DNA of 64,000 bases from Pseudomonadota bacterium (GTDB taxonomy: Bacteria; Pseudomonadota; Gammaproteobacteria; Steroidobacterales; Woeseiaceae): positions 124,001 through 188,000 of the forward strand of contig JAQCGO010000002.1 of NCBI GenBank assembly GCA_027618995.1. The letters run 5' to 3'. Both the position numbers and the translations under genes were made by a program. Under the pieces are notes generated by a model. It saw only the letters and a program-made list of their open reading frames with translations. It made no database searches and was not told where the DNA came from. Positions 4,398-53,627 of this stretch are shown one piece after another. How positions within the stretch are numbered: position 1 is the stretch's first letter; each line of letters starts with the position of its first letter.

Positions 4398-4553
4398 TTG
4401 GTGAACTTCCAGGTACCGTAATCGTCTGAGCCAGTGTGCCAGACTTGCCGGACTTTTTGGGCGTCAATTCGCGCCGGCTGCTCGTCCCGATTCTTTGATC
4501 ATGTGCGCGACCTGCGCGCAAATACCAGTGCTGATCTGGCCGTCCTCAACCCG

Positions 4554-6077
4554 CTAGCGCCAGTTGCCACCCGGCTTGCCGGGTGTGTTGATTCTGGCTT
4601 CCGAACCGAGTCCCAGATAATCCTGCAATGGCGCAATCGCCAGGTTGGAATGGCTCGAGAATGCCAGCCGCACCATGTCGGTATGAATCGTCGCGGCGCT
4701 GCCGCCGGTCAACGCAATGGCTGCTGCCTGTGTGCGACTTATCTCCTCGGCAGACCGCAGGTCCCCAGGGCTGCCCTGGAACCAACCGATCGTCGTGTCG
4801 TTATCGTGCGTGCCCGTATAGCAGACACTGTTTGCGGCAATTTTCTCAAAGTCGAAATCGGCATCGGCCACATCAAACTGCAGTACCACCATGCCCGGTA
4901 TCTGGTGGCGATCACGCAGGCCCTCGACCTCCGGTGTTATGACGCCGAGGTCTTCGGCGACGATCGGTAGTTTGCCCAGCGCTTTTTTCATGGCATCGAA
5001 AATCGCGTCGCCGGGACCGGGTTCCCAGCTGCCCAGACGAGCCGTCGTCGAACTCGCCGACACCGACCAGTACGACTCGAAACCGCGAAAATGATCGATG
5101 CGTACGATGTCGGTGAGCTTCGATGCCGCGCGCAAACGCTCGATCCACCAGCCGAATCCTTCCGCGGCATGTGTATCCCATGCATACAGCGGATTACCCC
5201 AGAGCTGGCCATTGTCGCTGAAATAGTCCGGTGGCACACCGGCAACCCGATCCGGCCGGCCGTTGGCATCGATGCTCAGGATGTGCGGATTCGCCCAGGC
5301 ATCCGCACTGTCGAGTGCAATGTAGATCGGTACGTCGCCAAACAGGCGGACACCCTTGCTGTTTGCGTAGGCGTGCAGCTGTTGCCATTGCTGATGAAAC
5401 AGAAACTGCAGGACCTTGATTATTTCAATCTCGTCGGCGGCTGACACGTCGAGCGCGCGTATTGCGATCGCCTCGCGGTGCATGTATTCGGATGGCCACT
5501 CGGGCCACGGCTGCTCGCCATGTTGCGTTTTGAGGATGCGATACAACGCATAGTCATGCGGCCAGCGTTGCTCATGTTGTGTGACGAAATCGGCGTACGC
5601 GGCCCGCAGGTCCGTACCGGCGTTTTGCAGAAAGCGGTGAGCTGCCAGGCGCAGGATGCGCATTTTTGTCGGTATCAGCGTTGCGTAATCAACATGATCG
5701 CGCGGTAGCTTGAGGAGTTGCGCTGCTTCATCGGCGGCAATGAACTGTTTTTCGATGAGGTCGGCGATATCAATCAGCATTTCGTTGCCGGCAAAAGTCG
5801 ACAATGCCTGATAGGGCGAGTCTCCGTATGCCGTCGGACCGGTAGGCAGGAACTGCCATACCTTCAATCGCATCGCATTCATGACGTCGACAAAATCTCG
5901 TGCATGTTGACCGATTTCGCCAATGCCATACGGTCCGGGCAATGATGCAATGTGCGGGCATACGCCGGCTTCTCTGCCGCGCGATAGAATCTGCGTGCCG
6001 CTGAAAGTTGGGTTATGCAGTTTGTTGTCTCGTCGCTTGCCGGTGCAGGACTCGCAGTAGTACCCTCTGGCGCTCAT
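4554..6077 (-). CDS. malQ: 4-alpha-glucanotransferase (amylomaltase), with a premature TAG near the C-terminus
   Basis: MalQ (GH77) transfers glucan chains between maltodextrins. Family segments include HIASLPGPYGIGEIG, GDSPYQALSTFAGN, RLFGDVPIYIALDSADAW, IVRIDHFRGFESYW and YTGTHDNDTTIGW. The frame stops at TAG (4556-4554) just after GGNWR, where almost all MalQ proteins read GGNWRWR. The same frame then continues for 29 codons (RVEDGQISTGICAQ and on) to TGA at 4466-4464. So a conserved Trp codon TGG appears changed to TAG, removing about 30 residues. The start is uncertain. The ATG at 6077 (507 residues to the TAG) interlocks with the divergent phosphatase ATG at 6076. Homology begins about 30 residues later, near 5996, where no ATG, GTG or TTG exists. 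The enzyme might still work, since only the tail is lost. Confidence 0.88.
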   Translation of the reverse strand: MSARGYYCESCTGKRRDNKLHNPTFSGTQILSRGREAGVCPHIASLPGPYGIGEIGQHARDFVDVMNAMRLKVWQFLPTGPTAYGDSPYQALSTFAGNEMLIDIADLIEKQFIAADEAAQLLKLPRDHVDYATLIPTKMRILRLAAHRFLQNAGTDLRAAYADFVTQHEQRWPHDYALYRILKTQHGEQPWPEWPSEYMHREAIAIRALDVSAADEIEIIKVLQFLFHQQWQQLHAYANSKGVRLFGDVPIYIALDSADAWANPHILSIDANGRPDRVAGVPPDYFSDNGQLWGNPLYAWDTHAAEGFGWWIERLRAASKLTDIVRIDHFRGFESYWSVSASSTTARLGSWEPGPGDAIFDAMKKALGKLPIVAEDLGVITPEVEGLRDRHQIPGMVVLQFDVADADFDFEKIAANSVCYTGTHDNDTTIGWFQGSPGDLRSAEEISRTQAAAIALTGGSAATIHTDMVRLAFSSHSNLAIAPLQDYLGLGSEARINTPGKPGGNWR

Positions 6078-6570
6078 GAAAACAACCACTCCTGCAGAAC
6101 AAGTGAAGCACCGCGTGCTATTCGTCTGCATGGGTAATATCTGTCGTTCGCCGACGGCAGAGGGTGTTTTCCGTTACTTTGTGAACGAAGCGGGCCTTAC
6201 GGATCAAATCGAGATCGATTCGGCCGGCACGCACGCGTACCACAACAATGAGCCAGCGGATCGGCGGGCAACTGCTGCTGCGGAGCGGCGTGGCTACTCC
6301 CTGGAGAATATTCGTGCACGACGCGTGCAGGACGAGGACTTCGAACGCTTCGATTACATCATCACCATGGATCGTGACAATCGCGCGATGCTGATCGAAC
6401 AGGCGGATGAGCGCCACCATCCCAAGATTCGCCTGTTTCTCGAATTCTCGGCAGGTGCGGAAGAGGAAGTACCGGATCCGTACTACGGCGGGGCGGCCGG
6501 ATTCGAACGCGTGCTCGATCTTGTGGAAAAAGCGTCCCGAGGCTTGCTCGAGACGCTAATCAAGTCCTAG
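6076..6570 (+). CDS. Low-molecular-weight protein tyrosine phosphatase
   Basis: A cytoplasmic phosphatase of the LMW-PTP/ArsC-like fold, which dephosphorylates phosphotyrosine proteins. The 164-residue protein has the P-loop CMGNICRSPTAEG near its N-terminus (the CX5R catalytic motif with Cys about residue 17), and the general-acid aspartate motif DPYYGG near residue 137. Length and architecture match stand-alone bacterial LMW-PTPs. No tyrosine kinase or exopolysaccharide genes sit nearby, so a capsule role (Wzb-like) is not supported. It is divergent from malQ with interlocked start codons, and its stop lies only 3 bases from the end of the convergent RNase E gene. Confidence 0.93.
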   Translation: MKTTTPAEQVKHRVLFVCMGNICRSPTAEGVFRYFVNEAGLTDQIEIDSAGTHAYHNNEPADRRATAAAERRGYSLENIRARRVQDEDFERFDYIITMDRDNRAMLIEQADERHHPKIRLFLEFSAGAEEEVPDPYYGGAAGFERVLDLVEKASRGLLETLIKS

Positions 6571-6573
6571 TCG

Positions 6574-9135
6574 CTATCCCTGCTCATTATCCCAGGGCAG
6601 CAATCGACCTTCAGGCTTCGGCGCTGGCGGTGCCTCGGGCTTCGGTGCCACCGTTACTTCAGGCTTCGGTGCAGGCGGTGCCTCAGGCTTCGGTGCCGCC
6701 GAAACTTCGGGTTTGGGTGCTGGTGCCGGCCGGCTTTCAGCTAAACCATTACCTGAACTATCAGATTCAATACTTTGTTTCATAACAGGTTTTTCAAACG
6801 AAAATGCAGGTGACTGCAGATTCGGATGGGTCTCCGCCAGATCCGTCGCCAGCTTGCTCGTGGTCGCTGCCGCAGTGGCCTCTTCAGCAGGCTTATCAGC
6901 TTTTGGCTTGCGTCGTGGGCGAGGCGGCCTCTTGGCTCCTGCATCCGTTGCTGTCTCGGCAGTGGCCGCCGTTTTTTCCGTCGGCTGCGCTGGTGGATTC
7001 TCGGTAGCCGCTTCCCTGGCCATCTGCTGTCGTGCGAATTGCGCCTGAGCGTCCTGTTCCGAGAGGTCCTGCGCGCCTGAATTTTCTACCGGCGGGCGAT
7101 CTGCCGCGCTGCCACGACGACGACGGCGGCCACCGCGGCTGCGCCTGCTGCGCGTGGGCTTCTTCGTCCAGGCATCCTGCGCATCGTCGCTGCCGCCTGC
7201 TGCTGCGTCTTGTGATTGCGGCTTTTGTTGCTGCGGCTTTTGTAGTTGCGGCTGATTGTTGCCGGGATCGGACTTCGGTTGATTTTGATCGTGTGCTGCC
7301 GCCTTCTTGACCGGCTTGCCGGATTTCTTGCGTTTCTCTTTGCGCTCTTCGTCCGGGCGCCGATTGTCCGATCGGCTGCGACCTTTTGCTGAAGTGCGTC
7401 CACGTCCGCCGCGATCTTCGCGACTATCACGTCGGCTGCTGGGCGTAGTCTTCTTCACTGTGCTGCTACGCGCGAACAGCGAGCCAAGCCATGCCAACAA
7501 ACTCGTGCCTTCCGGCTTCGGTTTCGGCGCTTGCGTCGAGGGTTTCAGCACCGCAATTGCCGCTGGTTCGATCGCTTTGCGCGCGAGGATCGCCTGCGGA
7601 GATTCCGGTTCGGTGTCGGGATTCTTCAACACGTAACTGACGCCGCTGTTCTCGGGCATGTCCATTTGATCGTCGCGGATGCGACGCACATCGAAATGCG
7701 GCGTTTCCAGCAGGGGATTCGCAACCAGAACAACCTCGACTTCATTGCGCTTTTCGAGACTCTGTACCCAGTCACGCTTCTCATTCAGCAGATAAGTCGC
7801 GACTTCGGCAGGTAATTGCGCGATTACCTTGGCGGTGCGCTCCTTGCGCGCTTCTTCACCGATGATGCGCAGGATCGCCAATGCCAGCGACTCAACGCTG
7901 CGAATCGTGCCAATGCCGGAGCAGCGCGGGCAGGTGAGGTAGCTGGACTCGTCCAAAGAGGGCCGCAGCCGCTGGCGCGACATCTCGAGCAGGCCAAAGC
8001 GGGAAATCTTGCCGATTTGCACACGGGCGCGGTCTTCATGCACCGCGTCGCGCAAACGGTCCTCCACGTCACGCTGGTGTTTTTGCGGTCCCATATCGAT
8101 GAAGTCGATGACAATCAGGCCACCAAGGTCCCGGATGCGCAATTGCCGCCCGATTTCGTCGGCCGCCTCCAGGTTGGTATTCAGTGCCGTGGCCTCGATA
8201 TCACCGCCTTTGGTAGAGCGCGCCGAGTTGATGTCGATTGAGACCAGTGCCTCGGTGTGGTCGATGACGATGCTGCCGCCGGAGGGCAGGTCGACCTTGT
8301 GCGCAAATGCCGACTCGATCTGCGTTTCGACCTGGTAGCGCGTGAACAGCGGCACCGGATCGTCGTAATACTTGATCCTTTTTAGGCTCTGCGGCATCAC
8401 CTGCGAGACGAACTCGATCGCCTCCTTATAAGTGGGCTCGTCGTCAATCAGGATTTCGCCCACGTCGCTGGTTACGTAGTCACGCAGTGCACGGATTACG
8501 GAATTGCTTTCGCGGTAGATCAGGAACGGTGACTTGCGCTCCAGGACGACGTTAAGAATCGCGGTCCAGACGGTGAGCAGATTCTGCAGGTCCCAGGCGA
8601 TCTCCTCGGGGCTGCGGTCGATGCCGGCAGTGCGCAGGATTACGCTCATATCCTTTGGAATTTCGACGCCATCGAGAGACGCCCGTGCTAGGTCGCGGTC
8701 CTCGCCAATGATGCGTCTCGAGACGCCGCCGGATTGCGATTTGTTGGGCTTGAGGACGACGAAGCGTCCTGCAAGGCTGACAAACGTGGTTAGCGCAGCG
8801 CCTTTATTACCGCGTTCTTCCTTGTCGACCTGCACAACAATGTCCTGGCCTTCTTTGAGGACATCACGAATATTGAACTTGCCGGAGTCGACGGGCCTGA
8901 TGAAGTACTCGGGGGAAATCTCCTTGAGCGGGAGAAATCCGTGGCGCTCCGCGCCGTAATCTACAAACGCGGCTTCGAGGCTCGGCTCGAGTCGCGTAAT
9001 TTTGCCTTTGTAGATATTTGCTTTCTTGCGTTCGCCTGTCGGTAATTCAATATTTAGGTCATAGAGACGTTGGCCATCGACCATCGCCATACGCAACTCT
9101 TCTTCCTGAGTTGCATTGATTAACATTCTTTTCAT
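6574..9135 (-). CDS. rne: Ribonuclease E
   Basis: RNase E is the membrane-associated endoribonuclease that organises the RNA degradosome and processes mRNA, rRNA and tRNA. The N-terminal half has the S1 domain (YKGKITRLEPSLEAAFVDYG), the 5'-sensor region, the DNase I-like catalytic core with Mg-binding aspartates (LVSIDINSARST, GLIVIDFIDMG) and the Zn-link CPRCSGIG near residue 400. The C-terminal half is the expected disordered scaffold. SLLAWLGSLFARS is a short amphipathic candidate for the membrane-targeting helix. Arg-rich stretches (RRSRGGRRRRRGS) are likely RNA-binding, and the end carries repeated APKPE units. Length is 853 residues, shorter than E. coli (1061) but within the gammaproteobacterial range. 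The 400-base non-coding stretch upstream is consistent with an autoregulatory 5' leader. Confidence 0.97.
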   Translation of the reverse strand: MKRMLINATQEEELRMAMVDGQRLYDLNIELPTGERKKANIYKGKITRLEPSLEAAFVDYGAERHGFLPLKEISPEYFIRPVDSGKFNIRDVLKEGQDIVVQVDKEERGNKGAALTTFVSLAGRFVVLKPNKSQSGGVSRRIIGEDRDLARASLDGVEIPKDMSVILRTAGIDRSPEEIAWDLQNLLTVWTAILNVVLERKSPFLIYRESNSVIRALRDYVTSDVGEILIDDEPTYKEAIEFVSQVMPQSLKRIKYYDDPVPLFTRYQVETQIESAFAHKVDLPSGGSIVIDHTEALVSIDINSARSTKGGDIEATALNTNLEAADEIGRQLRIRDLGGLIVIDFIDMGPQKHQRDVEDRLRDAVHEDRARVQIGKISRFGLLEMSRQRLRPSLDESSYLTCPRCSGIGTIRSVESLALAILRIIGEEARKERTAKVIAQLPAEVATYLLNEKRDWVQSLEKRNEVEVVLVANPLLETPHFDVRRIRDDQMDMPENSGVSYVLKNPDTEPESPQAILARKAIEPAAIAVLKPSTQAPKPKPEGTSLLAWLGSLFARSSTVKKTTPSSRRDSREDRGGRGRTSAKGRSRSDNRRPDEERKEKRKKSGKPVKKAAAHDQNQPKSDPGNNQPQLQKPQQQKPQSQDAAAGGSDDAQDAWTKKPTRSRRSRGGRRRRRGSAADRPPVENSGAQDLSEQDAQAQFARQQMAREAATENPPAQPTEKTAATAETATDAGAKRPPRPRRKPKADKPAEEATAAATTSKLATDLAETHPNLQSPAFSFEKPVMKQSIESDSSGNGLAESRPAPAPKPEVSAAPKPEAPPAPKPEVTVAPKPEAPPAPKPEGRLLPWDNEQG

Positions 9136-9535
9136 GGTGCCCTACTTGATAAGTGAGAGAGGGCAGTGAATCGGAACGAAGTGCCAGAGGGCGTACGCAG
9201 GGGAGTTCGTGCAACAGGAACAGGCGCTGCAAAGCGCCATCTGTGCGGTCGAGATACTTGTGGTGGTATTGATTCCCTTGAATCAGAAACCATAAAAAAT
9301 TCAGCATGTATTCCCTGCGGTTTGGCCGCTTTGGCGCTCGTAGAATTCCGAGCTCGCTGCCATCCGGGTTGGCTTCGCATCGCGGAGCCAAAGATAAATC
9401 TCTAATTAGTGTCTAATAACGACGCGACAGGTCCAGAAATGACTGCCGCGAAGGCTTTGTGGGCGCCGGATCCGTAGACCTAGGCTCACAGCGCGGTAAT
9501 ATAACACACACCTCGAATCCATCAAGCTATTGATC
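9136..9535. other. Intergenic region between divergent rne and rluC; probable rne 5' leader
   Basis: This 400-base gap separates the two divergent start codons. RNase E genes in gammaproteobacteria typically have a long 5' untranslated leader that RNase E itself cleaves for autoregulation, and the rne-rluC divergent arrangement is conserved. I see no convincing coding sequence here; the short frames that cross it are not conserved-looking. An AT-rich stretch near 9497-9504 (GTAATATAAC) could be part of an rluC promoter, but I cannot assign -35/-10 elements securely. Leader stem-loops would need RNA folding to define. Confidence 0.5.
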
Positions 9536-10501
9536 ATGCAAGAAAATCCGAATGATGCGACCGGCCAGCGAACGCAGGTCAGGAAGGTCAGCGTAGACAG
9601 TGAGCAGGCCGGGCAGCGTATCGATAACTACCTGCGACGCGTGCTGCCGGGCATCCCGAAGGGGCGGATCTACAATATCCTCAGGCGTGGTGAGGTGCGG
9701 GTCAACGGCGGCCGGGTGCGCGCCGAGTACAAGTTGCGCGAGGGCGACGAGGTCCGGATTCCGCCGGTCCGGGTACGCATCGAAGGCGACCCGCCGAGCG
9801 CTGGGCTGGCTGCAAGCGTGGCAAATCGGGTGTTGTTCGAGGACAAGCGGCTGCTGGTCATCGATAAACCGTCCGGGATCGCCGTGCATGGCGGCAGCGG
9901 CGTCAGCCACGGCGTTATCGAAATGTTGCGCCACGCGCGCCCCGATTTGCAGGACCTGTCGCTCGTGCATCGGCTGGACCGGGAAACGTCGGGGTGCCTG
10001 GTCCTGGCCAAGCGCCGCAGCGCGCTGCGCGAACTGCATGAACGATTTCGCGAAGGCCAGGTAGAAAAAAATTACCTCGGTCTGGCGGTCGGCGACTGGC
10101 AGCTCGGCGAGCAACTCATTGATGAGCCGCTACTCGTGCAGAACCGGCAGGGCGGTGAGCGTCACGTTATCGTGAATCGGGAAGGCAAGCCGGCGCAAAC
10201 CCGCGTCAACCTGTCTCGAAAGTATGGCAAGTACAGCCTGATGCAGTGTTCGCCGCTGACCGGCCGTACGCACCAGATTCGCGTGCATCTGGAATTCTAT
10301 GAGCACCCGTTGCTGGGCGATGAACGTTACGGAGACGGGGAGGCGAATCGCGCGGCGAAGAAACTCGGCTTGCCGCGATTGTTCCTGCATGCGCAGTCGA
10401 TCGCATTTCCCGATAGCAGTGGCAATGAATTGCATTTTACGTCGCCGCTGGCCGACGATCTCGAGCAATTTCTCCAGCGCCTTGCGAAAAAAGCCCCGTA
10501 G
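9536..10501 (+). CDS. rluC: 23S rRNA pseudouridine synthase RluC
   Basis: RluC-type RluA-family enzymes convert uridines at positions 955, 2504 and 2580 of 23S rRNA to pseudouridine. The 321-residue protein has an N-terminal S4 RNA-binding domain (RIDNYLRRVLPGIPKGRIYNI, residues 25-45) and the catalytic domain with the RluA signature VHRLDRETSGCLVLA, whose aspartate is the nucleophile. GRTHQIRVHL is also present. The first possible start is TTG at 9530, but the ATG at 9536 fits better. Position next to divergent rne is the canonical gammaproteobacterial location of rluC, which favours RluC over RluD or RluA. Confidence 0.93.
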   Translation: MQENPNDATGQRTQVRKVSVDSEQAGQRIDNYLRRVLPGIPKGRIYNILRRGEVRVNGGRVRAEYKLREGDEVRIPPVRVRIEGDPPSAGLAASVANRVLFEDKRLLVIDKPSGIAVHGGSGVSHGVIEMLRHARPDLQDLSLVHRLDRETSGCLVLAKRRSALRELHERFREGQVEKNYLGLAVGDWQLGEQLIDEPLLVQNRQGGERHVIVNREGKPAQTRVNLSRKYGKYSLMQCSPLTGRTHQIRVHLEFYEHPLLGDERYGDGEANRAAKKLGLPRLFLHAQSIAFPDSSGNELHFTSPLADDLEQFLQRLAKKAP

Positions 10502-10513
10502 CGAGCCGCCGTC

Positions 10514-11110
10514 TTAAGACGGCAGCAGGTAGCCCAGATCCAGCAACCTGCCGGCGACCCAGATCATGGGTAAGCCGATCAGCGCAGTCGGGTCTTCGGC
10601 CTTCACCGATTCGAACAGCACGAAGCCGCCACCCTCGAGTTTGAAACTGCCGGCGCAATCGTACGGTTCGTCGTGCCGCAGGTAGACCTCCGCCAGGCGA
10701 CGGTCGAAATTGCGGAAACGCACCGTGGTGACATCGATATGCTCGTGCCGGGTACGGCCAATTGGGTCGAGGATGCAGACCGCCGTCAGGAAGGTCATGG
10801 ACTTGCCGGAGGCCGCGAGCAGCTGTTCAATGGCGCCGGCATAATCGCCGGGTTTGCCGAGCACCTGGTCGTCGAGCACGGCCAGCTGGTCGGCGCCGAT
10901 GATCAAAGCGTGGCGCGCGTTGATCGATACGGCCTCTGCCTTCTTGCGGGCCAGATGGCTGGCCAGTTCATGCGGCTCCAGGCCCTCATCGTTACTCTCG
11001 TCCACCTGCGGCGAGACCGCTTCATATTCCGACAGGAAACGATCCAGCAATCCACGACGGTAGCGTGACGACGAGGCGAGAAAAATCGGTGGCGCGGCGG
11101 GATTCTGCAT
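10514..11110 (-). CDS. yceF: Maf-family nucleotide pyrophosphatase, YceF type
   Basis: Maf proteins hydrolyse non-canonical nucleoside triphosphates; the YceF subgroup prefers 7-methyl-GTP. The 198-residue protein starts PPIFLASSSRYRRGLL, the Maf signature for substrate binding. It continues with PQVDESNDE, ARKKAEAV, LIIGADQLAVLD (catalytic Asp) and GSFKLEGGGFVLFE, the last being typical of YceF rather than YhdE. Divergent placement from yceD-rpmF-plsX-fabH is the standard gammaproteobacterial arrangement and supports the subgroup. A perfect 16-base palindrome (GCCGTCTT and its complement, 10508-10523) overlaps the end of the gene, in the convergent gap with rluC. Confidence 0.92.
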   Translation of the reverse strand: MQNPAAPPIFLASSSRYRRGLLDRFLSEYEAVSPQVDESNDEGLEPHELASHLARKKAEAVSINARHALIIGADQLAVLDDQVLGKPGDYAGAIEQLLAASGKSMTFLTAVCILDPIGRTRHEHIDVTTVRFRNFDRRLAEVYLRHDEPYDCAGSFKLEGGGFVLFESVKAEDPTALIGLPMIWVAGRLLDLGYLLPS

Positions 11111-11227
11111 AAAATCAAAAACTTGGCTAGGATAGCCGGCAGTTTAACCACAACACTGGTGGAAACCGACCGTTTCCAGCCGGTTCGCTTTGACAGCGGC
11201 GGCCGGGGTCCTTATCATGCGCGCGCC

Positions 11228-11767
11228 ATGGGCAATCCGCTGCTACAACGCCGCGCCCCGCAGGAATTGGCGGCAAGCAGGGAACTCATTGAAATTAAAG
11301 CGAAAGTTTCTGATTTCGAGCGACTGAGTGAAACAATTGCAAAGGATTTGAGGCCGCCGGATCGGGACGGACTGCCGGATGACTGGCGCGACTCGATTGT
11401 CAGCGGCCAGCTGCGCTTTGGTTTCAACGCTGCGCAGGGCGATTTGCCGACTGCCAGTGGGCAGGCGGCTGTTACTATCGCTGCAGTCTGCCAGCGTTGC
11501 CTGCAGCCGTTTTCGCTGCCGCTGCAGGCAGAGCTAAAGCTGGTGTTTGGCGAGGGTGGCGGTGGTGACTACGAGCAATGGGAGCTGGACGACGACCAAC
11601 TTTGTCCGGCAGACCTGATCGATGAGGCGCTGGTCATGGCGCTGCCGCTGGCGGCGATGCATGACGCCGAAAGCGCCTGTAAAGCAATGACGGTTGCGGA
11701 GGAAAAGCCGGGCCGGATGAGAACACCGTTTGCGGGTTTGAAAGCGCAAATGGGCAAGGAAAACTGA
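11228..11767 (+). CDS. yceD: YceD family (DUF177) 23S rRNA accumulation protein
   Basis: YceD/DUF177 proteins are needed for normal 23S rRNA accumulation in E. coli and plants and almost always precede rpmF. I place the start at the ATG 11228 (179 residues, close to the E. coli 173), because the upstream in-frame TTG at 11123 would add 35 residues that look non-coding. The family pattern [20 protein letters not shown] lies near residue 85. An acidic stretch ([27 protein letters not shown]) follows, where the family usually has its conserved D-L-x-x-L-v-E-E-L-L-L region. It is first in the yceD-rpmF-plsX-fabH run. Confidence 0.9.
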
Positions 11768-11810
11768 ATTTAATGATGGTGTGTATGCGCCATTATTCCA
11801 GGAGAAGAGC

Positions 11811-12011
11811 ATGGCTGTTCAAAAAAGTCGCAGGACCCCAGCAACACGTGGCGCACGCCGTGCACATGACAAGCTGAAAAAACCGGCAGTGTCCGTTGAC
11901 CCGACCTCGGGTGAGACGCACTTGCGACATCGGGTGACTGCAGACGGCTTCTATCGCGGCAATCAGGTAATTGTGCAGCCGGAAGTCGCAGCAGAAGACG
12001 ACGCCGAGTAA
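11811..12011 (+). CDS. rpmF: 50S ribosomal protein L32
   Basis: A small basic ribosomal protein of the large subunit. The ATG at 11811 has the Shine-Dalgarno sequence AGGAGAAG ten bases upstream and gives the canonical N-terminus [20 protein letters not shown]; 66 residues. The conserved [17 protein letters not shown] block near the middle matches L32. The short acidic tail (AAEDDAE) is an extension compared with the E. coli protein. It lies between yceD and plsX as in most gammaproteobacteria, and translation of this group is probably coupled. Confidence 0.97.
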
Positions 12012-12033
12012 ACGACCAGGCTGAACAGGTCAT

Positions 12034-13065
12034 GTGCTGCATGACGTTCTGTTTGTGGCGACACAGTCAATAATTTCCCTTGACGCGATGAGCGGCGACC
12101 GTGGCGCCGAGACAGTTGTGCGCGCCGCAAATGCCGCGATTAATGCGCATGCCGGCCTCGAGTTGATCCTGGTTGGCGATTCAGCGCTACTGCGAGACCT
12201 GGTGACTCGTATCGTAGGCGACGAGCCGCGATTGTCGATTGTGCATGCCAGTGAGGTGGTCGCGATGGGCGAGTCTCCGGTTGATGCGTTGCGCAAGAAG
12301 AAAGATTCCTCGATGCGTGTTGCGCTGAACCTGGTCAGGGACGGTGCAGCGGCAGCCTGTGTCAGCGCCGGCAATACGGGGGCGCTGATGGCCACCGCGA
12401 AATATGTACTGAAAATGCTGCCCGGTATCGATCGACCCGCCATTATCACGGAGCTGCCCGCAATCGGCGGCACCCTGCACATGCTCGATCTTGGTGCCAA
12501 CACCCTGTGTTCCGCGGAGCACCTATTTCAGTTCGCCGTCATGGGATCGATTGTGACGGCAGATATCACGGGCATTGAAGCGCCGAAAATCGCCTTGCTG
12601 AACATCGGCGCCGAGGAAACCAAAGGTCACGACACAGTCAGGGAGGCGGCGGCAATGCTGACCGCAAGCAGCCTGAATTACGTCGGCTTCATCGAGGGCA
12701 GCGAATTATTTTCCGGTAAGGCGGACGTCGTCGTTACGGACGGCTTTACCGGCAATGTCGCGCTTAAGACGATGGAGGGAACCGTCGGGCTGGCCTCGCA
12801 CTACCTGCGGCGCGCCTTTAGCAACGGGTGGTTCGCAAAGTTGCAGGCGACATTGTCCCGCCCCGTGCTGCGCCGCCTGGCCGAGGACATGGACTCACGC
12901 AAATACAATGGCGCGACGCTGGTCGGCCTGAATGGTATTGTTATCAAGAGCCACGGCAGCGCCGATAGCTATGCGTTTCAGCACGCCATCGATACGGCGG
13001 TCGTCGAAGTAAAGAACCAAGTGCCTCTGCAGATCGGGCGCCTGTTGCAGCGGGAAGTGGCATGA
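12034..13065 (+). CDS. plsX: Phosphate acyltransferase PlsX
   Basis: PlsX converts acyl-ACP plus phosphate to acyl-phosphate, feeding PlsY in membrane phospholipid synthesis. Visible family blocks include LDAMSGDRGAETVV at the N-terminus (usual motif DAMGGDxGP), VSAGNTGALMATA, RPAIITELPA, LLNIGAEETKGHD and DVVVTDGFTGNVALK. The frame opens at GTG 12034 (343 residues), but a second GTG at 12055, giving the N-terminus (M)ATQSIISLDAMSG, is equally plausible. Typical length is about 340-356. Its stop overlaps the fabH start by 4 bases (ATGA), indicating translational coupling. Confidence 0.95.
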   Translation: MLHDVLFVATQSIISLDAMSGDRGAETVVRAANAAINAHAGLELILVGDSALLRDLVTRIVGDEPRLSIVHASEVVAMGESPVDALRKKKDSSMRVALNLVRDGAAAACVSAGNTGALMATAKYVLKMLPGIDRPAIITELPAIGGTLHMLDLGANTLCSAEHLFQFAVMGSIVTADITGIEAPKIALLNIGAEETKGHDTVREAAAMLTASSLNYVGFIEGSELFSGKADVVVTDGFTGNVALKTMEGTVGLASHYLRRAFSNGWFAKLQATLSRPVLRRLAEDMDSRKYNGATLVGLNGIVIKSHGSADSYAFQHAIDTAVVEVKNQVPLQIGRLLQREVA

Positions 13066-14030
13066 CCTACACAAAAATAGTCGGTACCGGACGATACCTG
13101 CCAGAAAAAATTCTGACTAATTTCGACCTGGAAAAGATGGTCGATACGACGGACGAGTGGATTCGCACGGGTACCGGCGTCGAGCGGCGGCATGTGGTGG
13201 CGCAGGATCAGACCACTTCCGACATGTGCGTTGAAGCCGCGAAAATCGCGATTGAAGATGCCGGCATCGACGTGACGGACATCGACATGGTGCTGGTCGG
13301 CACGACCTCACCGGATCTGATCTTTCCGAATTGTGCGACCCTGGTACAGCACCGCCTGGGCATTCCGGCGTGTCCGGCAATCGGCATGGAAGCAGCGTGC
13401 ACCAGTTTCATCTATGCGCTGACGACCGCAGACAAGTTCATCAAGGCCGGTGAAGCAAAATGTGCGCTGGTGATCGGCGCCGAGTGCATCAGCAAACTGA
13501 TTGACTGGACTGATCGCAATACCTGCGTTCTGTTTGGTGATGGCGCCGGTGCAGTGATCGTGAAATCGTCCGATAAGCCCGGTATCATCGCAACCCACCT
13601 GGGTGCGGATGGCCAGTACAAAGACCTGCTTTACTACTCGGTCGGTGCATCGAAAGATTTGCACAAAGCCGGCACGGACCAGGCGTCGCTCAAGATGACC
13701 GGCAGCGAGGTATTCAAGGTTGCAGTGAAGACCCTGGGTAACGTTGCGACTGAAGTGCTCGCCAAAGCCGGCATTCATCAGGACGAACTCGACTGGCTGG
13801 TTCCGCACCAGGCCAATATTCGAATTATTTAGGCCACTGCGAAGCGCCTGAATCTGCCGCTGGAGAAGGTCATTCTTACGGTGCAGGATCATGGCAATAC
13901 GTCTGCCGCGTCAGTGCCAATGGCGCTTGATGTCGGGCGACGTGATGGCCGTATCAAACCGGGCCAGCTGATCCTGATGGAAGCGTTTGGCGGCGGCTTT
14001 ACCTGGGGTTCGGTATTGCTGCGCATGTAG
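13062..14030 (+). pseudogene. fabH: Beta-ketoacyl-ACP synthase III, interrupted by an in-frame TAG
   Basis: FabH starts type II fatty-acid synthesis by condensing acetyl-CoA with malonyl-ACP. The frame from ATG 13062 encodes the normal N-terminus, the active-site cysteine (MEAACTSFIYAL) and the histidine motif WLVPHQANIRII. It then hits TAG at 13830-13832. In the same frame the expected C-terminal 65 residues follow: [18 protein letters not shown], the catalytic-Asn motif [10 protein letters not shown], and [16 protein letters not shown], ending with TAG at 14028-14030. Homologues have Gln, Ser, Glu or Asp at the interrupted codon, so CAG to TAG is the simplest change. Without readthrough the product (256 residues) lacks the catalytic asparagine and should be inactive. 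The gene is usually followed by fabD-fabG-acpP-fabF, which are not here. Confidence 0.93.
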
Positions 14031-32813: not shown

Positions 32814-33955
32814 GATTTGTCCCTGGCATCGCGGCGATACGGGCTGTGGCTCTGTACCGACTGCATGTAGCGCTCCACATGCCGCGTTTCCCTGTCAACG
32901 TAGGCGCCAATGGCAGAGAAAAACTCCGGGTGCTGCAGCCAATGCGCGGACCAGGTTTCGATCGGAGAGAATCCGCGTGCGATCTTGTGTTCACCCTGGG
33001 TACCTGGCTCGAAAAGCGTCTTGCCGGTTTCGATGCAGTATTCAATGCCCTGGTAGTAACAGGTCTCGAAATGCAGCGCGTCATAGTTGCCGTCGCTGCC
33101 CCAGTAACGACCGTACAAGGTAGTTGTACTTTCGAAGAAAACGGCTGCCGCGATCGTCTTGCCGGCAATCTCTGCGAATACGACGAGTACTTTGTCGGGC
33201 ATCGTGTCGCTGATTGTTTGGAAGAACTGCAGGTCAAAGTACGGCAGCACGCCGCGCCGCAGAAACGTGACACTGATAAGCTCGTAGGCCCGGCACCAGT
33301 CTGCGGCCGACATGTCGCCGCCGTGCAGCCGGCGAAAGGTAACGCCCGCATCAGCCACGCGACGACGATCCTGGCGAACCTTCTTACGTTTCGCAGCACT
33401 AAACGTGCGCACAAAGCCATCGAAGTCATTGTAGTTTCGGTTGTGCCAGTGAAACTGGCAGTCTTTGCGTACCTTGAGTTGCAGGTCGCGGCACATCTCA
33501 AGGTCGAACGCGGCCGGAAACAGCACGTGCAAGGAGGAGTAGTGACCGTCTTCGGCCAGTTGTATAGCTGCACGCAACAACAGGTTCGCGCCTTCCTGGT
33601 CAGCGGCATCCCTGAGTAACAGCCGGGAGCTTGTTGCCGGCGTGAACGGCACGGCGGAAACGAGTTTCGGGTAGTACTCCAGGCCAGCGCGTTGATAGGC
33701 CTCTGCCCACGCCCAATCGAAGACGAATTCGCCCCAGGAGTGGCTTTTTTCGTAGAGCGGCATTGCGCCTCGCAGCACACCGTCCTGATACAGGGTCAGA
33801 TGGCGCGGTGTCCAGCCGGTCGCCGGCGACACCGAACCGCTGTCCTCGGCCGCGCGCAGAAAAGCATGTTGCAGGAACGGGTAGTCGTCAGTGAGCAGGG
33901 CATTCCAGTCCTGAGCCGGAATGGCACTTATCGAGTCGTTTACCGTGATCGTTAT
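32810..33955 (-). CDS. GNAT/FemAB-like acyltransferase (COG3146, DUF482), canonical start codon missing
   Basis: A family of unknown substrate, often annotated as a predicted N-acyltransferase or peptidoglycan-biosynthesis protein. Core features are visible: LRGAMPLYEKSHSWGEFVFDWAWA, FHWHNRNYNDFDGFV, FSAAKRKKVRQDRRRV, RGFSPIETWSAHWL. The first ATG/GTG/TTG in frame is GTG at 33832, but homology clearly extends upstream (SISAIPAQDWNALL, PFLQHAFLRAAEDSGS). The expected N-terminus would begin at codon 33955-33953, which reads ATA (Met-Thr-Ile-Thr-Val-Asn-Asp if it were ATG). That codon is 5 bases after the trxB stop. An ATG-to-ATA change or a non-standard start is implied. If the gene really starts at 33832 it loses about 41 conserved residues. 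It overlaps aat by 4 bases. Confidence 0.75.
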   Translation of the reverse strand: MTITVNDSISAIPAQDWNALLTDDYPFLQHAFLRAAEDSGSVSPATGWTPRHLTLYQDGVLRGAMPLYEKSHSWGEFVFDWAWAEAYQRAGLEYYPKLVSAVPFTPATSSRLLLRDAADQEGANLLLRAAIQLAEDGHYSSLHVLFPAAFDLEMCRDLQLKVRKDCQFHWHNRNYNDFDGFVRTFSAAKRKKVRQDRRRVADAGVTFRRLHGGDMSAADWCRAYELISVTFLRRGVLPYFDLQFFQTISDTMPDKVLVVFAEIAGKTIAAAVFFESTTTLYGRYWGSDGNYDALHFETCYYQGIEYCIETGKTLFEPGTQGEHKIARGFSPIETWSAHWLQHPEFFSAIGAYVDRETRHVERYMQSVQSHSPYRRDARDKS

Positions 33956-33960
33956 CGTGA

Positions 33961-40963: not shown

Positions 40964-40994
40964 CCTGAATTCAGGGGTAAACCCGATACTGAAA

Positions 40995-41195
40995 CTACGG
41001 TGCGACCAAGTTGTAATGTGGCTGCAGAAACATCACGAGATCGGTTAGCTCCTGTACCGTCATGTAGGCGTTGTACACGTATGCGTCGCCATCCGGTAAC
41101 CGAAAACCACGCTCGGACATGGTCTTGTCTGCGTCGCAAGCACGGAGCAGAGTCACTGCTATCGCAAGAATTGCGAGCATCTTCGCCGTTCTCAT
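40995..41195 (-). pseudogene. Short putative lipoprotein, probable internally deleted c-type cytochrome
   Basis: The ATG at 41195 has a perfect AGGAGG ribosome site eight bases upstream and gives a 66-residue protein. MRTAKMLAILAIAVTLLRAC looks like a lipoprotein signal (Cys20, although Arg at -2 is unusual). It is followed by ERGFRLPDGDA and, without a gap, YVYNAYMTVQELTDLVMFLQPHY. In a family of small cytochrome c lipoproteins known to me, a G-F-x-L-P-x-G-D-A-x-x-G start precedes a CxxCH haem site, and a Y-N-x-x-M-T-V-x-Q-L-x-D-L-V-x-F-L-Q segment ends the protein. Here the haem part (roughly 70-80 residues) is missing in frame. It could instead be a genuinely small lipoprotein. It lies next to the IS element. 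Confidence 0.5.
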
Positions 41196-41280
41196 CTTCC
41201 ACCTCCTGCACAGCCGGAGCGACTGTGGCATACCCATATAAGCACATGGCTGCCGCCTGCGGCAAAAGGGAAAGCCACAA

Positions 41281-41344
41281 AAAAAAGCCCGCAAAGCGTG
41301 CCCAGACTGCTGACAAAGCCCCGGCGATTTCGCCGGGGCTTTTG
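41281..41344. terminator. Left end of the IS: two back-to-back hairpin terminators
   Basis: The inner hairpin has a perfect 11-bp stem (AAGCCCCGGCG / CGCCGGGGCTT, 41316-41341, loop ATTT) followed by TTTTG. It reads rightward and would stop serS-operon transcripts before the transposase. The outer hairpin, GCCCGC-AAA-GCGTGC (41287-41301, one mismatch), is preceded by eight A residues. It is therefore a leftward terminator. Confidence 0.85.
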
Positions 41345-41355
41345 TACAATGGGTC

Positions 41356-42816
41356 ATGCTAAAAGAACCCGGTGCGCATCAGCATGCGCTAGAGATGGTG
41401 ACCCTGGAGTCGTTGGTTCCTTCAGATCACTTGTTGCGTCAGATCGACGCCTGCATTGACTTCGAGTTCATTCGCAACAAAGTCAAACATCTGTACTGCA
41501 TTGACAATGGCCGGCCGGCGACCGATCCGGTGGTGCTGTTCAAGCTGTTGTTCATCGGTTACCTGTACGGTATCCGCAGCGAACGGCAGCTGGTGAAAGA
41601 GGTTGAGGTGAACGTGGCCTACCGCTGGTTCCTGGGGTTTTCGCTGACGGACCGGATCCCGGACGCGAGCACTATCAGCCAGAACCGGCGGTGGCGCTTT
41701 GTGGGCACGCCGATCTACCAGGAGATTTTCGACCAGATCGTCGAGCAGGCACAGTCTTCCGGGCTGGTGACAGGGCGGGTGCTGTACACCGACAGCACCC
41801 ACTTGAAGGCCTCAGCGAACAAGAACAAGTTCGACGTGAAAGAAGTCGAGGTGGCGCCGCAGGCTTACCTCGACGCGTTGGATGCGGCGGTTGACGCTGA
41901 CCGCGAGTCACACGGCAAACGGCCGCTGAAGGTCAGGAATGAGCCGCCGAAGACGAAGCAGAACAAGGTCAGCCGCACCGACAAGGACGCCGGCTACATG
42001 GTCAGGGACGGCAAGCCGAAGGGTTTTTTCTACCTCGATCACCGCACCGTGGACGGTGCCCACGGCATCATCACTGACAGTTATGCGACGCCCGGCAATG
42101 TGCATGACTCGCGCCCGTATCTTGAGCGCCTCGATCGGCAGCGGCAACGCTTCGGTTTTGAGGTGGCTGCGGTGGGTCTGGATGCGGGTTACAGCTCGGC
42201 CGCGATCTGCCAGGGACTGGAGGAGCGCGACATCTACGGTGTCATCCGCTACCGGCGGCTGAACCACAAGCCCGGCTACTTCTACAAGCGCGACTTTCCT
42301 TACGACGCTGAGACGGATCATTACCTCTGTCCGGGCGAACAACGCATCAGCTACAACACGACCAACCGCGAAGGCTACCGGGAGTACAAGTCGGATCCTG
42401 ACATCTGTAAGAACTGCCCGTTACTAACGCAATGTACCCGCAGCGCCAACCACGTGAAGGTCATTACGCGGCACGTGTGGCAGGACGCCAAGGAGCGTAT
42501 TGACGCGCACCGCAAGACAGCGGCCGGGAAGAAGCTCTATGCACGGCGCAAGGAAACCGTGGAAAGAAGCTTTGCCGATGGCAAGCAATTACACGGGCTT
42601 CGCTAAGCGCGCCTGCGCGGTATCGGCAAGGTCCAGGAACAGTGTCTGTTGTCGGCCGCTTGCCAGAATATGAAGAAGATCGCCATGCACAAGGCCAGGA
42701 AGGCCTTTTTGTCGCTCATCGGCTGGCTCAAGACGGTTACTCAGCAGCAGCGGCTGCAATATTGGCACGCATCATCGCTTGCAAGCCGTTATCGACAAAT
42801 CTCAGCCATCGCCTGA
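41356..42816 (+). pseudogene. IS1182-family transposase, interrupted by an in-frame TAA
   Basis: A DDE transposase of the IS1182 type: MLKEPGAHQHALEMVTLESLVP, then ATDPVVLFKLLFIGYLYGIRSERQLVKEV, LGFSLTDRIPDASTISQNRRRW-like sequence, VLYTDSTHLKASANK (first Asp), and the C-terminal ARRKETVERSFADGKQLHGLR with the catalytic Glu. The frame stops at TAA 42604-42606 after HGLR. The same frame continues ARLRGIGKVQEQCLLSAACQ, then NMKKIAMHKARKA, to TGA 42814-42816, the normal family C-terminus. Relatives have Tyr (TAC/TAT) at the broken codon. The truncated 416-residue form retains the DDE core and might still be partly active, but the copy looks inactivated. Confidence 0.88.
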
Positions 42817-42826
42817 GCAGGCCCTG

Positions 42827-42894
42827 AAAAAACAAACCCCGCCAAAAATGACGGGGTTTGTCAGCAGTCTGAGGCCGCAAAGCGGGCCTTTTTT
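42827..42894. terminator. Right end of the IS: two back-to-back hairpin terminators
   Basis: The inner hairpin is CAAACCCCG (42833-42841) pairing with CGGGGTTTG (42852-42860). It is preceded by six A residues and so reads leftward, where it would terminate transcripts from the convergent Bax inhibitor-like gene. The outer hairpin, GGCCGC-AAA-GCGGGCC (42873-42888, one bulge), is followed by six T residues and reads rightward, ending transposase transcripts. Confidence 0.82.
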
Positions 42895-45449: not shown

Positions 45450-45596
45450 ATGAGCTGGCCCGTGCAAGACGCCATTATTTACATTGATCCACAACAGCCC
45501 ATGAATCTGCAGAATCAGATTCGGCAGAAACTGGTGGATGAGCACTGTGATTTTGGCGATTTCGCTGGCGATTCCCTTCAGTTTCGCCATCGATGA
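45450..45596 (+). pseudogene. Possible N-terminal remnant of a GntR/MocR-type regulator
   Basis: A 48-codon frame from ATG 45450 reads IIYIDPQQPMNLQNQIRQKL, then VDEHCDFGDF. The pattern I-x-I-D-x-x-x-P-x-x-L-Q-x-Q-I-R-x-x-L-V matches the region just before the winged-helix of MocR-like GntR regulators. The frame then diverges and stops at TGA 45594, and no DNA-binding or aminotransferase domain follows. I read it as a degraded stub, but chance similarity over 20 residues cannot be excluded. It lies in the 357-base gap between the peroxiredoxin and SDR genes. Confidence 0.35.
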
Positions 45597-45740: not shown

Positions 45741-46706
45741 ATGAGAATTGCAAAAACGATCGCCGTTGTGGCATTGCAGGGATTGCTGGTCTGCAGCTTT
45801 GCCGCGAAGGCGGCCGACGACTCGGCACGAAAGGCTGTACTGGTCACCGGTGCGAGTTCGGGCATTGGTCTCACTATTGCCGAAACGCTGGCTGAGAACG
45901 GTTACTACGTCTACGCCGGCGCGCGCAAGGCGGCCGACCTGGAACGGCTCGATGCGATGGAGAACATGAGTGCGGTCAGGCTCGACGTCACTGTGCAGGA
46001 CGATATCGATGCGGCGGTCGAGTTCGTCAGGGGTGAGGGCCGGGGTCTCTGGGGCATCGTCAACAACGCGGGCGTTGTAATGCTGGGGTCGCTGGTGACC
46101 GACTCGGAAGAGAGGGTCAGGACCACGCTCGAGATCAATGTGCTTGGCCCGGTTCGAATCAATAACGCGTTCCTGCCCTTGCTGCTCGAGAGCCAGGGGC
46201 GCACGACGACAATCGGTTCCATCAGCGGATACATTGCGGGCAGCGAGGACGGCGGCTACAGCACCAGCAAGTTCGCTGTTGAAGGCTACACGGACTCGCT
46301 CGCCGCGGAACTGGCCGAATCCGGTGTACACGTCAGCGTGGTTGATCCGGGCAGCTACAAATCGGAGATTCGCAGCAAAATGCTCGTGCAGACGCTCGCC
46401 GCCGCCGATGCCGGCGACATCGAACTCGATGCCGCGAGTCGCGAAAAGATGATCAGCACGACCATGGGTAACGAGTCGCTAAAGGAACCCGATTAAGTCG
46501 CACAGGCGGTACTGCATGTCATGTCCAGTGATACGCCCAGGCGTCGATACATGGTCACACCGAACGCGGATCAGGCCCGGCGGACGATCACGGCTGCGAT
46601 GCAGCGCCTGCTGGAACTTAATGCAGATCAGCCATACAGCTACAATCGTGAGCAGCTGATCGCAATGCGCGATGAATTACTGGCGCCGTCGAATTCCAAA
46701 GAATGA
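45741..46706 (+). pseudogene. Exported short-chain dehydrogenase/reductase, interrupted by an in-frame TAA
   Basis: A classical SDR preceded by a convincing signal peptide (MRIAKTIAVVALQGLLVCSF, cleavage near AKAADD). The cofactor motif VTGASSGIG, NNAG (GIVNNAGVVMLG), the serine region TIGSISGYIAG and YSTSK (catalytic Tyr/Lys) are all present. The frame stops at TAA 46494-46496 after ESLKEPD. It then continues in the same frame as VAQAVLHVMSSDTPRRRYM, then VTPNADQARRTITAAMQRL, to TGA at 46706, a normal SDR C-terminus. A Glu or Gln codon is the likely original. The truncated protein (251 residues) keeps the catalytic core but loses the C-terminal 70 residues that usually shape the substrate pocket. 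Confidence 0.85.
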
Positions 46707-48972: not shown

Positions 48973-49474
48973 GTGAGCATTCAGACGCGCCTCCTTGAAT
49001 ACGTGGATGGGGACCTCGTGTTCGAGGGACGTCTCGCCTGGGACGACACGTGCCATGGTCCACGACCGGGTGTCCTCGTTTCACATACTATTGCGGGCCG
49101 CAGTGCATTTGAAGAGCGCAAAGCGCGACAGCTTGCCGAGCTCGGTTACGTTGGCTTCGCGATCGATGTCTATGGCAAGGGCACGCAGTCGACCGACTTG
49201 GTCGCAAACAAGGCCCGCATGGATGCGCTCAAGGCGGATCGACCCGGCCTGCAGAGACGGTTGCTGGTGGCGCCCGCAGAGGTCGTCGCACTTGCGCAAG
49301 AGCTGACGGCTGCGGGCGCCGACTGGCAACTAACTGCACGGCTATGGTCATACCATGCACGCTTTCAGCAACCCGATCGCACGGGATCCGGTTGGCGGCA
49401 AGGCTTATAGCGAGAGCGCCGATCGGCGTTCCTGGGCAGCGACGCGATATTTTCTCGCCGAGCTGTTTGACTAA
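48973..49474 (+). pseudogene. Dienelactone hydrolase family pseudogene (internal deletion plus frameshift)
   Basis: The N-terminal part is a clear alpha/beta hydrolase of the DLH type (DGDLVFEGRLAWDDTCHGPRPG, ERKARQLAELGYVGFAIDVYGKG). At about 49266-49275 the sequence jumps from LQRRLL straight to PAEVVALAQELTAAGADWQL, which in relatives lies more than 100 residues further on. The nucleophile elbow and the catalytic aspartate are therefore gone. A second lesion follows between about 49333 and 49343. After DWQL the frame shifts by one, and the expected YGHTMHAFSNP, then ESADRRSWAATRYFLAELFD, is found in another frame, ending at TAA 49472-49474. The gene must be non-functional. Confidence 0.9.
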
Positions 49475-51331: not shown

Positions 51332-53627
51332 ACTTGCGGCGAAAGCGGCTGAAAAAGCCCTTATCGGAATCGTCGTCATCATCGTCATCGTCGTCTTCCG
51401 ATATCGCGTTGGGACGTATGCTCAGTGCTTTGAGTGTTTGCGTCATCGAGGTCGTTATCTGGTCCTCGATCGAGTCGACAGGGACGGAGTTGGCGGCTGT
51501 TGGCGACTCCAGCCTGCTACCGGACATGACGATACATTCGGTCGCATCGGGCGTTGCCGGTGCGCCGCGTGGCACCGTAGAATTATTGAGTTCGCGCAAT
51601 ACCTTTAGCCGCTGCGACGGAGATGTATCCATAACTTTCGGCGCGTTCGATTTGTCTGCCTCGATACTCAGTTCCACATCTTGAACTTCGTCATCGAGGG
51701 GTAGCGATGCGTTGGCCGCGACCTGAGCAGCAAGCGAGCTGAATTCTTCACCGAACAAGGTTTCTGCCATGAAGTCATCAACGTCTTCAATCGTCCTGGC
51801 CATTGCGATACTCGATGCGATTTTCTCGAGTTCCTGGACCGGCAGACGCGCCTCCTTAGCGGGGGCGGTGGTTGCAACAGCAGCGGCTGCAACAGTTGGG
51901 GCAGTTGCGGCAACCCGGGCAATCGGCGCCGCCGCCGGTTTGTTGACGACAGGTAACGGCTTCTCCGCAGGTTTCGCAGCCACTTTCGGCACAGGCGTCG
52001 GGGCGGTATTCGTCAAGGGTTTCGCGATCGGCTTCGGCACGATCTGTGGCTCCGGTTTCGGAATCGCTTTGGGAACCGGTTTTTGCTCAGTCTTTGGTAC
52101 GGCTTTTACGACCGGCTGAATCGTCGCCTTAACGGATTTAACGCCGCCGGACTGGTCGTCATTTGATGCATTGCTGCCGCTGCGAGGTGCCGCAGCGGGT
52201 TCAGGCTGCGTTTTCTTCAGTGCTTCGGTCTCTTCTTGAATCTTCGCCTCAATCTGTTTGTCGAGTGTGATCTCCGGAATCACTTCCACACGATCATCGT
52301 TGTCGGCGCTCTTTGACGTCCCGCGCCGTGGACGTAGTTGCGAGGCAGCGGCAACAGCGTCCGGTCCCTGGGCGATCGCCATGGCTCGCTCCAGGGCTTC
52401 GAGATCGGGCCGCAGTTCGGCGAAGGTCGGATCACGATCCCAGGCCGGAATGTCCTTCGGTATTCGGCCATCTTCATCACGCGCTTCGGACGGGATGTTG
52501 GCCGTTAAATTGGTTAGCACCGGCAGTTCATTTTCGGTTTGCTCATGCACCGGTTCCTCTATCACAGTGGTGGACACTTTGAGCGGTACGGGACGGGCCT
52601 GCCATGAGGCTGCGAATTGCTCCGGACCTCGGGCCAGATAGGGTGCCAGAATCTCGAGGTCGGGCAGCGTATCCTGAATAAATACAGGCATGTCGTCCTC
52701 TTCAACCCTCACCACGGGCGTCGCGTTTGCGAGAGCCGGTTCCGGTGGCAGGATGTCCTCAACGGCCGCCGCCTTTTCGATGGCCGCGGCGACATGCTCG
52801 ACCTTGTGTTTAGTGGTCAGGCCGAATTCTTCGGCGGCTGTCTGCGCGATCATTTGCGGCGTAATGCGTTTATCGCCTTTCTCCGCTGCAATGTTCAGCA
52901 CGGACTCGAGCAGGTTGTTGACGACACGGGGCAGGCCATCACTGAGATCGTGTAGCGTGTTGGCGGAGCCCTCCGCAAATATCGTGTCGAACTCGCGACC
53001 CGCCAGACGGAAACAATGTTTCAGGTAGCCCTGTAACTCAATCACGTTCTGTGCGTCGAGTTTTTGTCGTGTTCGCAGGCGCTGTTTTAGTCGCGCCAGC
53101 TTCGGGTCGCGCAACAGGTCATTGATGCTGTCGTCGCCGAGCAGGATGAGGTTGGCGCCGTTGGAAACGCCGGCGTCCGCAGCGGTCAGTGCTTCTAGCT
53201 CCGATAACGTGTCGGGTCCAATGCGAGTCGCATCTTCGACCAGGATGAAGACCCGGGTATTCTGCTCGGCAAACTGCTGCAACATGCGCCGAAAGGTTGC
53301 GAACCTGTGCACCGTGCTCTTTGGCAACTGCCGTGCGCCCATTCCGGCGAGCAATATCTCCAGAACTTCGTCGGCCCCGAAGGTCTTGCGGCCAATGGTT
53401 ACGATGCCCCGCTTTTATCCGATGCCATCGAGCGCTCGTTTTGCTATCGTCGTTTTGCCAGAGTCAACGGGTCCACTCAGGCAGACAACGGCATCCTCGG
53501 TCAATAATGCTTTTTTCAGGGCTGCGATAACGGCTGCAACCTGCGGCGCCACAAATACGTTTGTGCCGACTACGTGGGCGGAAAACGGGGCCTTATTCAG
53601 GCCAAAGTGCGACAGGTACGAGTTCAT
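51330..53627 (-). pseudogene. ExeA-like AAA ATPase with long Pro/Lys/acidic tail, interrupted by an in-frame TAA
   Basis: The ATG at 53627 starts MNSYLSHFGLNKAPFSAHV, typical of ExeA/GspA-like ATPases. The Walker A is CLSGPVDSGKTTIAKRA (about residue 50). TAA at 53417-53415 then interrupts the frame (DGIG-stop-KRGIVTIGRKTFGADEVLEILLAGMG). The rest continues in frame: Walker B-like RVFILVEDATRIGPDTLSELEAL, LRTRQKLDAQNVIELQGYLKHC, SDGLPRVVNNLLESV. A long low-complexity region rich in Pro-Lys (KPVPKAIPKPEPQIVPKP) follows, and a tail with nine consecutive Asp ends GFFSRFRRK. Restored length is 765 residues. Separated from Walker A, the downstream part alone could not hydrolyse ATP. No GspB/ExeB partner is nearby, so a secretin-assembly role is unproven. 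Confidence 0.85.

Follow-up and report, generated by a model that had tools for sequence, protein, structure and literature searches.

Probable early-stage, lineage-specific gene decay in a Woeseiaceae genome, judged from interrupted genes and comparison with close relatives

Introduction

Gene decay is itself a well-known process. Pseudogenes have built up in Salmonella enterica Paratyphi A and Typhi, in Paratyphi A to 4.8% of annotated genes, and a comparison there lists 6 nonsense and 16 insertion or deletion (indel) events (PMC2658671). Among marine gammaproteobacteria, Aliivibrio salmonicida is described as carrying 185 pseudogenes (4.3%) that include both frameshift and nonsense lesions (PMC2627896). 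A literature search on pseudogenes in Woeseiaceae and Woeseia and on genome reduction in Woeseiales returned nothing that we judged to be related. Here we describe a 64,000-nucleotide (nt) stretch of DNA (referred to as the window; positions 124001–188000 of the 199-kb contig C63) from a Woeseiaceae genome (G000; 2.54 Mb in 76 contigs, 97% complete), in which an initial annotation had pointed to at least nine damaged loci, among them malQ and fabH, and had listed genome decay, damaged template DNA and an error-prone consensus as possible causes. Comparison with relatives suggests, with a probability that we would put at about 0.7, that the lesions represent real lineage-specific accumulation of pseudogenes, that is, ordinary early-stage gene loss.

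Results

Internal stops are in excess throughout the sampled genome

The nearest relative used for comparison was G060 (JAOUHU010000021.1, isolate 4_1_May_SF_Bin74; 3.3 Mb) and the outgroup was G026 (3.5 Mb); in the named collection the best relatives by FabH are metagenome-derived genomes, several of them from Woeseiaceae. Over nearly all of the window the order of genes is matched by three G060 contigs combined, with 77–82% DNA identity in large blocks, and most of the lesions originally listed are absent from G060, which has intact codons at these places. To count lesions on equal terms the gene models of each genome served as references in an orthologue scan covering 27% of G000 (n = 281; 97,508 aa) and about one-third of G060 (n = 299; 98,022 aa). 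A stop was scored as internal if it came after residue 50 and no fewer than 12 residues before the end, with five or more of the 10 residues flanking it on each side identical. Under this rule G000 shows 20 internal stops in 18 of its 281 orthologues, against one in 299 for G060. The excess suspected from the window therefore extends to the wider tally, although without the C-to-T bias that had been proposed along with it (see below). Only two of the 20 stops (those in fabH and an SDR gene) fall in the window. The interval 4464–14030 that had been singled out is not special, the pattern being spread throughout the sampled genome.

Frameshifts and large indels were scored by split protein matches, an earlier DNA-level frameshift scan having missed GlgX. 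This added seven further G000 genes; the reverse direction gave five, two of which are mirror images of G000 deletions, leaving three. Large deletions in G000 measure 222, 228 and 678 nt. Two lesions in the same gene were seen in a Ser/Thr kinase, an MFS transporter (TAG + TGA), an AAA ATPase, GlgX, a hydrolase and a lipoprotein; the first four of these lie outside the window, as do broken genes for a DUF2062 protein, an RND adaptor, tryptophan 2,3-dioxygenase, an AsmA-type protein and a DUF4136 protein. Change rich in third codon positions (at least 0.51) is found upstream of 19 of the 20 G000 stops and also upstream of the sole G060 stop, which, although it falls a little ahead of its gene model, has the coding-like pattern; this test is rough, since a gene on the opposite strand can yield a similar pattern. 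With lesions missing from the relatives compared, recurrent in the sampled genome and of several mutational classes, genome decay as named in the initial annotation is well placed among the candidate causes.

Further interruptions were sought among coding-potential candidates from a six-frame contest, which took the place of a raw scan dominated by antisense shadow frames. Four of 12 candidates tested showed no interrupted gene or gave no result (one being two genes in both relatives, one having the same TAG end in G060, one with an upstream-only match and one with no match), and a fifth, a peptidase-like frame, had matches to distant copies only. Outside the window, an in-frame TAG also stands at position 1555 in a frame that we take to be HisF (L166:913-1920; G000:C24).

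fabH

The fabH gene (13062–14030, forward strand) has an in-frame TAG at 13830–13832, as first annotated, after which the remaining 65 codons, including the GNTSAAS stretch, are still highly conserved; TIGR00747 scores above its cut-off even for the truncated protein. The stop occupies a position that is a Gln codon in all 19 same-genus loci (L004–L022) and in L023, which together are the 20 nearest copies and are all open. No stop is present at this position in the 99 other rows of the homologue scan (102 loci, two of which gave no row; some genomes are represented twice, and one row is the paralogue from G000 itself). That paralogue is intact (52% identity), so loss of fabH is probably tolerated, and of 36 genomes of the genus searched, 27 have a second FabH match of 47–54%. 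At FabH residue 37 there is Gly here and Arg in 18 of 18 other aligned copies. Two members of the genus, G003 and G010, have genomes of about 1.5 Mb at 89–90% completeness, the others having at least 2.2 Mb; a FabH match is missing altogether from G010 and is limited to 44 residues in G003. These two are possibly further along in reduction.

Glycogen and tryptophan breakdown

malQ (4-alpha-glucanotransferase; 4554–6131, reverse strand) has the in-frame TAG that had been reported (4554–4556), with about 31 residues of frame beyond it; G060 and G026 have Trp at this position and both their frames continue. The protein scores above the cut-off of TIGR00217. This stop fails the flank rule and is not one of the 20 scanned. 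Residue changes in malQ number 53 on the G000 side and 37 on the G060 side. GlgX, outside the window, has one stop and a 1-nt deletion (31 against 28 residue changes), so that GlgX and MalQ are both broken within one cluster, where the frames of GlgP (phosphorylase), GlgB and GlgC are open. It looks as if glycogen breakdown (GlgX, MalQ) is being lost as a unit.

The stop-bearing tryptophan 2,3-dioxygenase adjoins the frame of an FAD monooxygenase that has lost 678 nt relative to G060 (L152:10157-12483; G000:C7). In G060 the dioxygenase shares a fused frame with the neighbouring dihydrofolate reductase, and it is this frame that TIGR03036 matches, at 378 bits (cut-off 391); the best NCBIfam match of the monooxygenase is VioC, under the cut-off. 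Tryptophan breakdown (the dioxygenase and the adjacent monooxygenase) may likewise be in the course of loss as a unit. The two linked pairs are suggestive and do not amount to a tested enrichment.

Rates of change on the two branches

Synonymous changes are equally frequent on both branches (2554 for G000 and 2608 for G060), so a raised mutation rate is unsupported. Residue changes number 1075 on the G000 branch and 922 on that of G060 (totals that leave out one spurious row of 1 against 112), an increase of about 17% that could reflect either slightly weaker purifying selection or a minor contribution of sequence error.

Consensus error accounts poorly for the lesions as a whole

The most serious rival is that low coverage or minority-strain alleles introduced wrong bases during consensus building or assembly, in which case most cells would lack the stops. 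The raised residue change just described is compatible with it, as are the occurrence of stops in otherwise well-conserved genes (fabH, the kinase, the RND adaptor and tryptophan dioxygenase) and the preponderance of nonsense over frameshift lesions. To generate the stops, however, 0.17–0.32% of bases would have to be wrong, and such a rate should also leave radical missense changes in conserved surroundings. At the 12,003 codons where G060 and G026 agree we counted 11 such changes for G000 and seven for the G060 branch, whereas error predicts about 15 extra at 0.2% and about 23 at 0.3% (P = 0.006 and P = 0.00005, respectively, with the G060 count of seven treated as exact). As radical missense changes are not in excess, uniform error at 0.2–0.3% is disfavoured. 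The quality of the changes points the same way: random single-base changes would average −0.47 on BLOSUM62, whereas those seen average 1.14 for G000 and 1.09 for the G060 branch. At sites otherwise invariant, changes unique to G000 number four in EF-G (26 sequences; G060 also has four), three in RpoB (18), one in PlsX (16) and, over the initial 480 residues of RpoC (17), none; all these counts lie within the spread of other genomes (in the invariant-site and BLOSUM62 comparisons the L151 and L165 rows were disregarded, one relative being counted twice). The broken FabH itself has three (19 sequences, maximum nine). Large deletions cannot be base errors in any case, a point made from the outset and upheld by the losses of 222 and 228 nt relative to G060. 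An error-prone consensus is thus an unlikely general cause, the required rate being disfavoured; a few wrong or minority-strain bases among the lesions are possible.

TAG codons are probably not decoded

Suppression or partial recoding, by which TAG inside genes would be read as Gln or another residue often enough to yield product, was first suggested by TAG facing Gln in six of the eight coding-potential candidates with an aligned residue, a sign that we no longer rely on, the less biased orthologue scan being near the prediction given below and the tests of tRNAs, terminators and RF1 being negative. In that scan TAG still makes up 12 of the 20 internal stops, more than either other codon, and seven of the 12 stand opposite Gln. 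The most striking single case is the Ser/Thr kinase with a cyclic-nucleotide domain (C63:38905-40200; L110), where two in-frame TAGs both stand opposite Gln. However, TAA and TGA account for four stops each, and the third-position spectrum of the G000 branch itself predicts 54% TAG, 20% TAA and 26% TGA, with Gln facing 42% of the TAGs. TAG also ends 185 of 552 gene models in G000, compared with 97 of 312 in G060 and 58 of 154 in G026. No stop anticodon was found in 42 distinct tRNAs identified by ARAGORN in the stretches examined, which include Gln(CUG) and Gln(UUG), nor did two pattern searches of the G000 genome find a CTA anticodon; a genome-wide tRNA search gave 42 matches, and the set is incomplete in that, for example, Ile(GAU) and Ala(UGC) are missing. 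The RF1 gene is open and intact (361 aa). As had been argued initially, the residues opposite the stops differ, which recoding does not explain, and we regard it as very improbable; for the stops of malQ, fabH, SDR and the ExeA-like ATPase the relatives have Trp, Gln, Glu and Lys, respectively. The case shares with stop-codon reassignment and amber suppression the presence of in-frame stops within otherwise conserved genes, but differs in that all three stops are involved, RF1 is intact, TAG still terminates and no suppressor tRNA was found. A variant on which we would place equally little weight is amber tolerance that needs no suppressor tRNA: TAG would be read often enough as Gln (e.g. by near-cognate tRNA-Gln(CUG)) while RF1 still terminates, and Gln-to-TAG changes would be nearly neutral. 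It is best illustrated by the kinase with its two TAGs, which may alternatively represent very recent loss.

Mutator and template damage

A mutator lineage, in which a repair defect raised the rate of point mutation and so produced many stops, would suit the predominance of point lesions, but synonymous change is no greater in G000 than on the G060 branch, and we consider this explanation highly unlikely. Least credible of all is cytosine deamination in the template DNA placing C-to-T changes in the consensus, which could reach the Gln- and Trp-facing stops by transitions but not the Glu-, Lys- and Tyr-facing ones, which require transversions, nor the frameshifts and deletions. The C>T/G>A changes at codon positions 1 and 2 (227 specific to G000, 198 on the G060 branch) are accompanied by a rise in T>C/A>G (178 and 139, respectively), so the excess is not specific. 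With the mix of stops also near that predicted from third positions, the special C-to-T process of the initial annotation finds no support.

Other loci in the window

The SDR gene (45741–46703, forward) has an in-frame TAA at 46494–46496 with 69 codons beyond it, G060 having Glu there, and the ExeA-like AAA ATPase (51333–53627, reverse) has a TAA at 53415–53417, near the start of the gene, where G060 has Lys; both stops were correctly read at the outset. The ATPase stop was not among the 20 scanned (64.7% identity, with the cut at 65%), and its gene shows 63 residue changes on the G000 side against 23 for G060. The frames of malQ, fabH, SDR and the ATPase are all still recognisable past their stops. 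In the dienelactone hydrolase gene (48973–49471, forward) the internal loss noted near 49270 is a 222-nt deletion relative to G060, followed by a 4-nt insertion, which leaves split frames; the gene is also disrupted relative to G026. The remnant of a cytochrome-like lipoprotein (40974–41204, reverse), flagged near 41100, lacks, in frame, 228 nt that are present in the G060 gene, among them those for the CNQCH motif, and has a TAG at 40995–40997, seven sense codons before the normal end and too near it to be among the 20 scanned stops.

An insertion sequence (IS) element at 41280–42894 (forward; DDE transposase from 41356) is bounded by 42-nt inverted arms that are 81% complementary. Its transposase has the in-frame TAA already reported (42604–42606), for which there is no reference residue as no copy is present in G060 or G026; it is the single copy of its type in G000, and about 1.57 kb at this site is absent from G060. 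The genes on either side converge on the element. GC-rich stretches with A/T runs, resembling a terminator, form part of the inverted arms, and insertion may have been into a transcription terminator.

Two loci depart from the first description. The remnant at 45450–45593 (forward) is real, in that G026 has a full GntR/aminotransferase (MocR-type) gene to the start of which 26 residues correspond, but no match was found in the G060 contigs searched, of which C23 spans the site, and the loss may therefore be older. The expected start of the FemAB-like acyltransferase (33955–33957, reverse) is indeed ATA, but G060 also lacks ATG there (G026 has one) and we do not count it as a lesion of G000. 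The remaining seven of the nine loci (malQ, fabH, the IS transposase, SDR, the ATPase, the hydrolase and the lipoprotein) are damaged as described.

Discussion

On the favoured explanation, genes that were dispensable or redundant have been put out of action, since the split from G060, by nonsense mutations, small frameshifts and internal deletions. Weakened purifying selection on these functions would have allowed inactivating mutations to become fixed, and the genome would then begin to shrink; a smaller population or a new niche might have relaxed selection in this way. The smaller size of the G000 genome beside those of G060 and G026 is in keeping with this. Several observations weigh on the other side. 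Coding density is 0.858 in both G000 and G060. The 20 stops are not significantly clustered within genes (two double-stop genes against 0.86 expected, P = 0.21), a separate count (15 lesions, three genes) having been set aside because the lesions were hand-chosen. Some of the 20 are weaker than others, namely those at C63 8542, 13393, 14769 and 85810 and at L153 8719 (12 residues from the end), and the stop at C63 85810 has no coding-like pattern upstream. fabH shows no acceleration, with eight residue changes on each side, and the kinase is 97% identical to that of G060 despite its two stops, though it has 10 changes specific to G000 against three specific to G060 (stops included). The mix of lesions is rich in nonsense (20 stops against about seven genes with frameshifts or indels), unlike that in the Salmonella comparison. 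Lesions in genes that, like these two, have hardly changed otherwise must be very young, or a minority of them must be errors, or they must be subject to readthrough.

If the lesions are real, gene loss has been caught early, with the broken genes still recognisable and a close relative with intact copies at hand. The functions that seem to go first would then be glycogen breakdown, tryptophan breakdown and a redundant FabH.

Set beside the described systems, the genome resembles those of Salmonella in its lineage-specific inactivation through nonsense mutations, small indels and deletions, but the Salmonella are host-restricted pathogens with complete genomes in which indels outnumber nonsense mutations, whereas here the reverse holds and there is no known host. 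With Aliivibrio salmonicida it has in common frameshift and nonsense pseudogenes and, apparently, the loss of whole pathways (chitin use in that organism), although IS expansion is part of the decay there and a single IS copy of this type is present here. With 18 of 281 orthologues affected by stops alone, the build-up in G000 is of the same kind as those in Salmonella and Aliivibrio.

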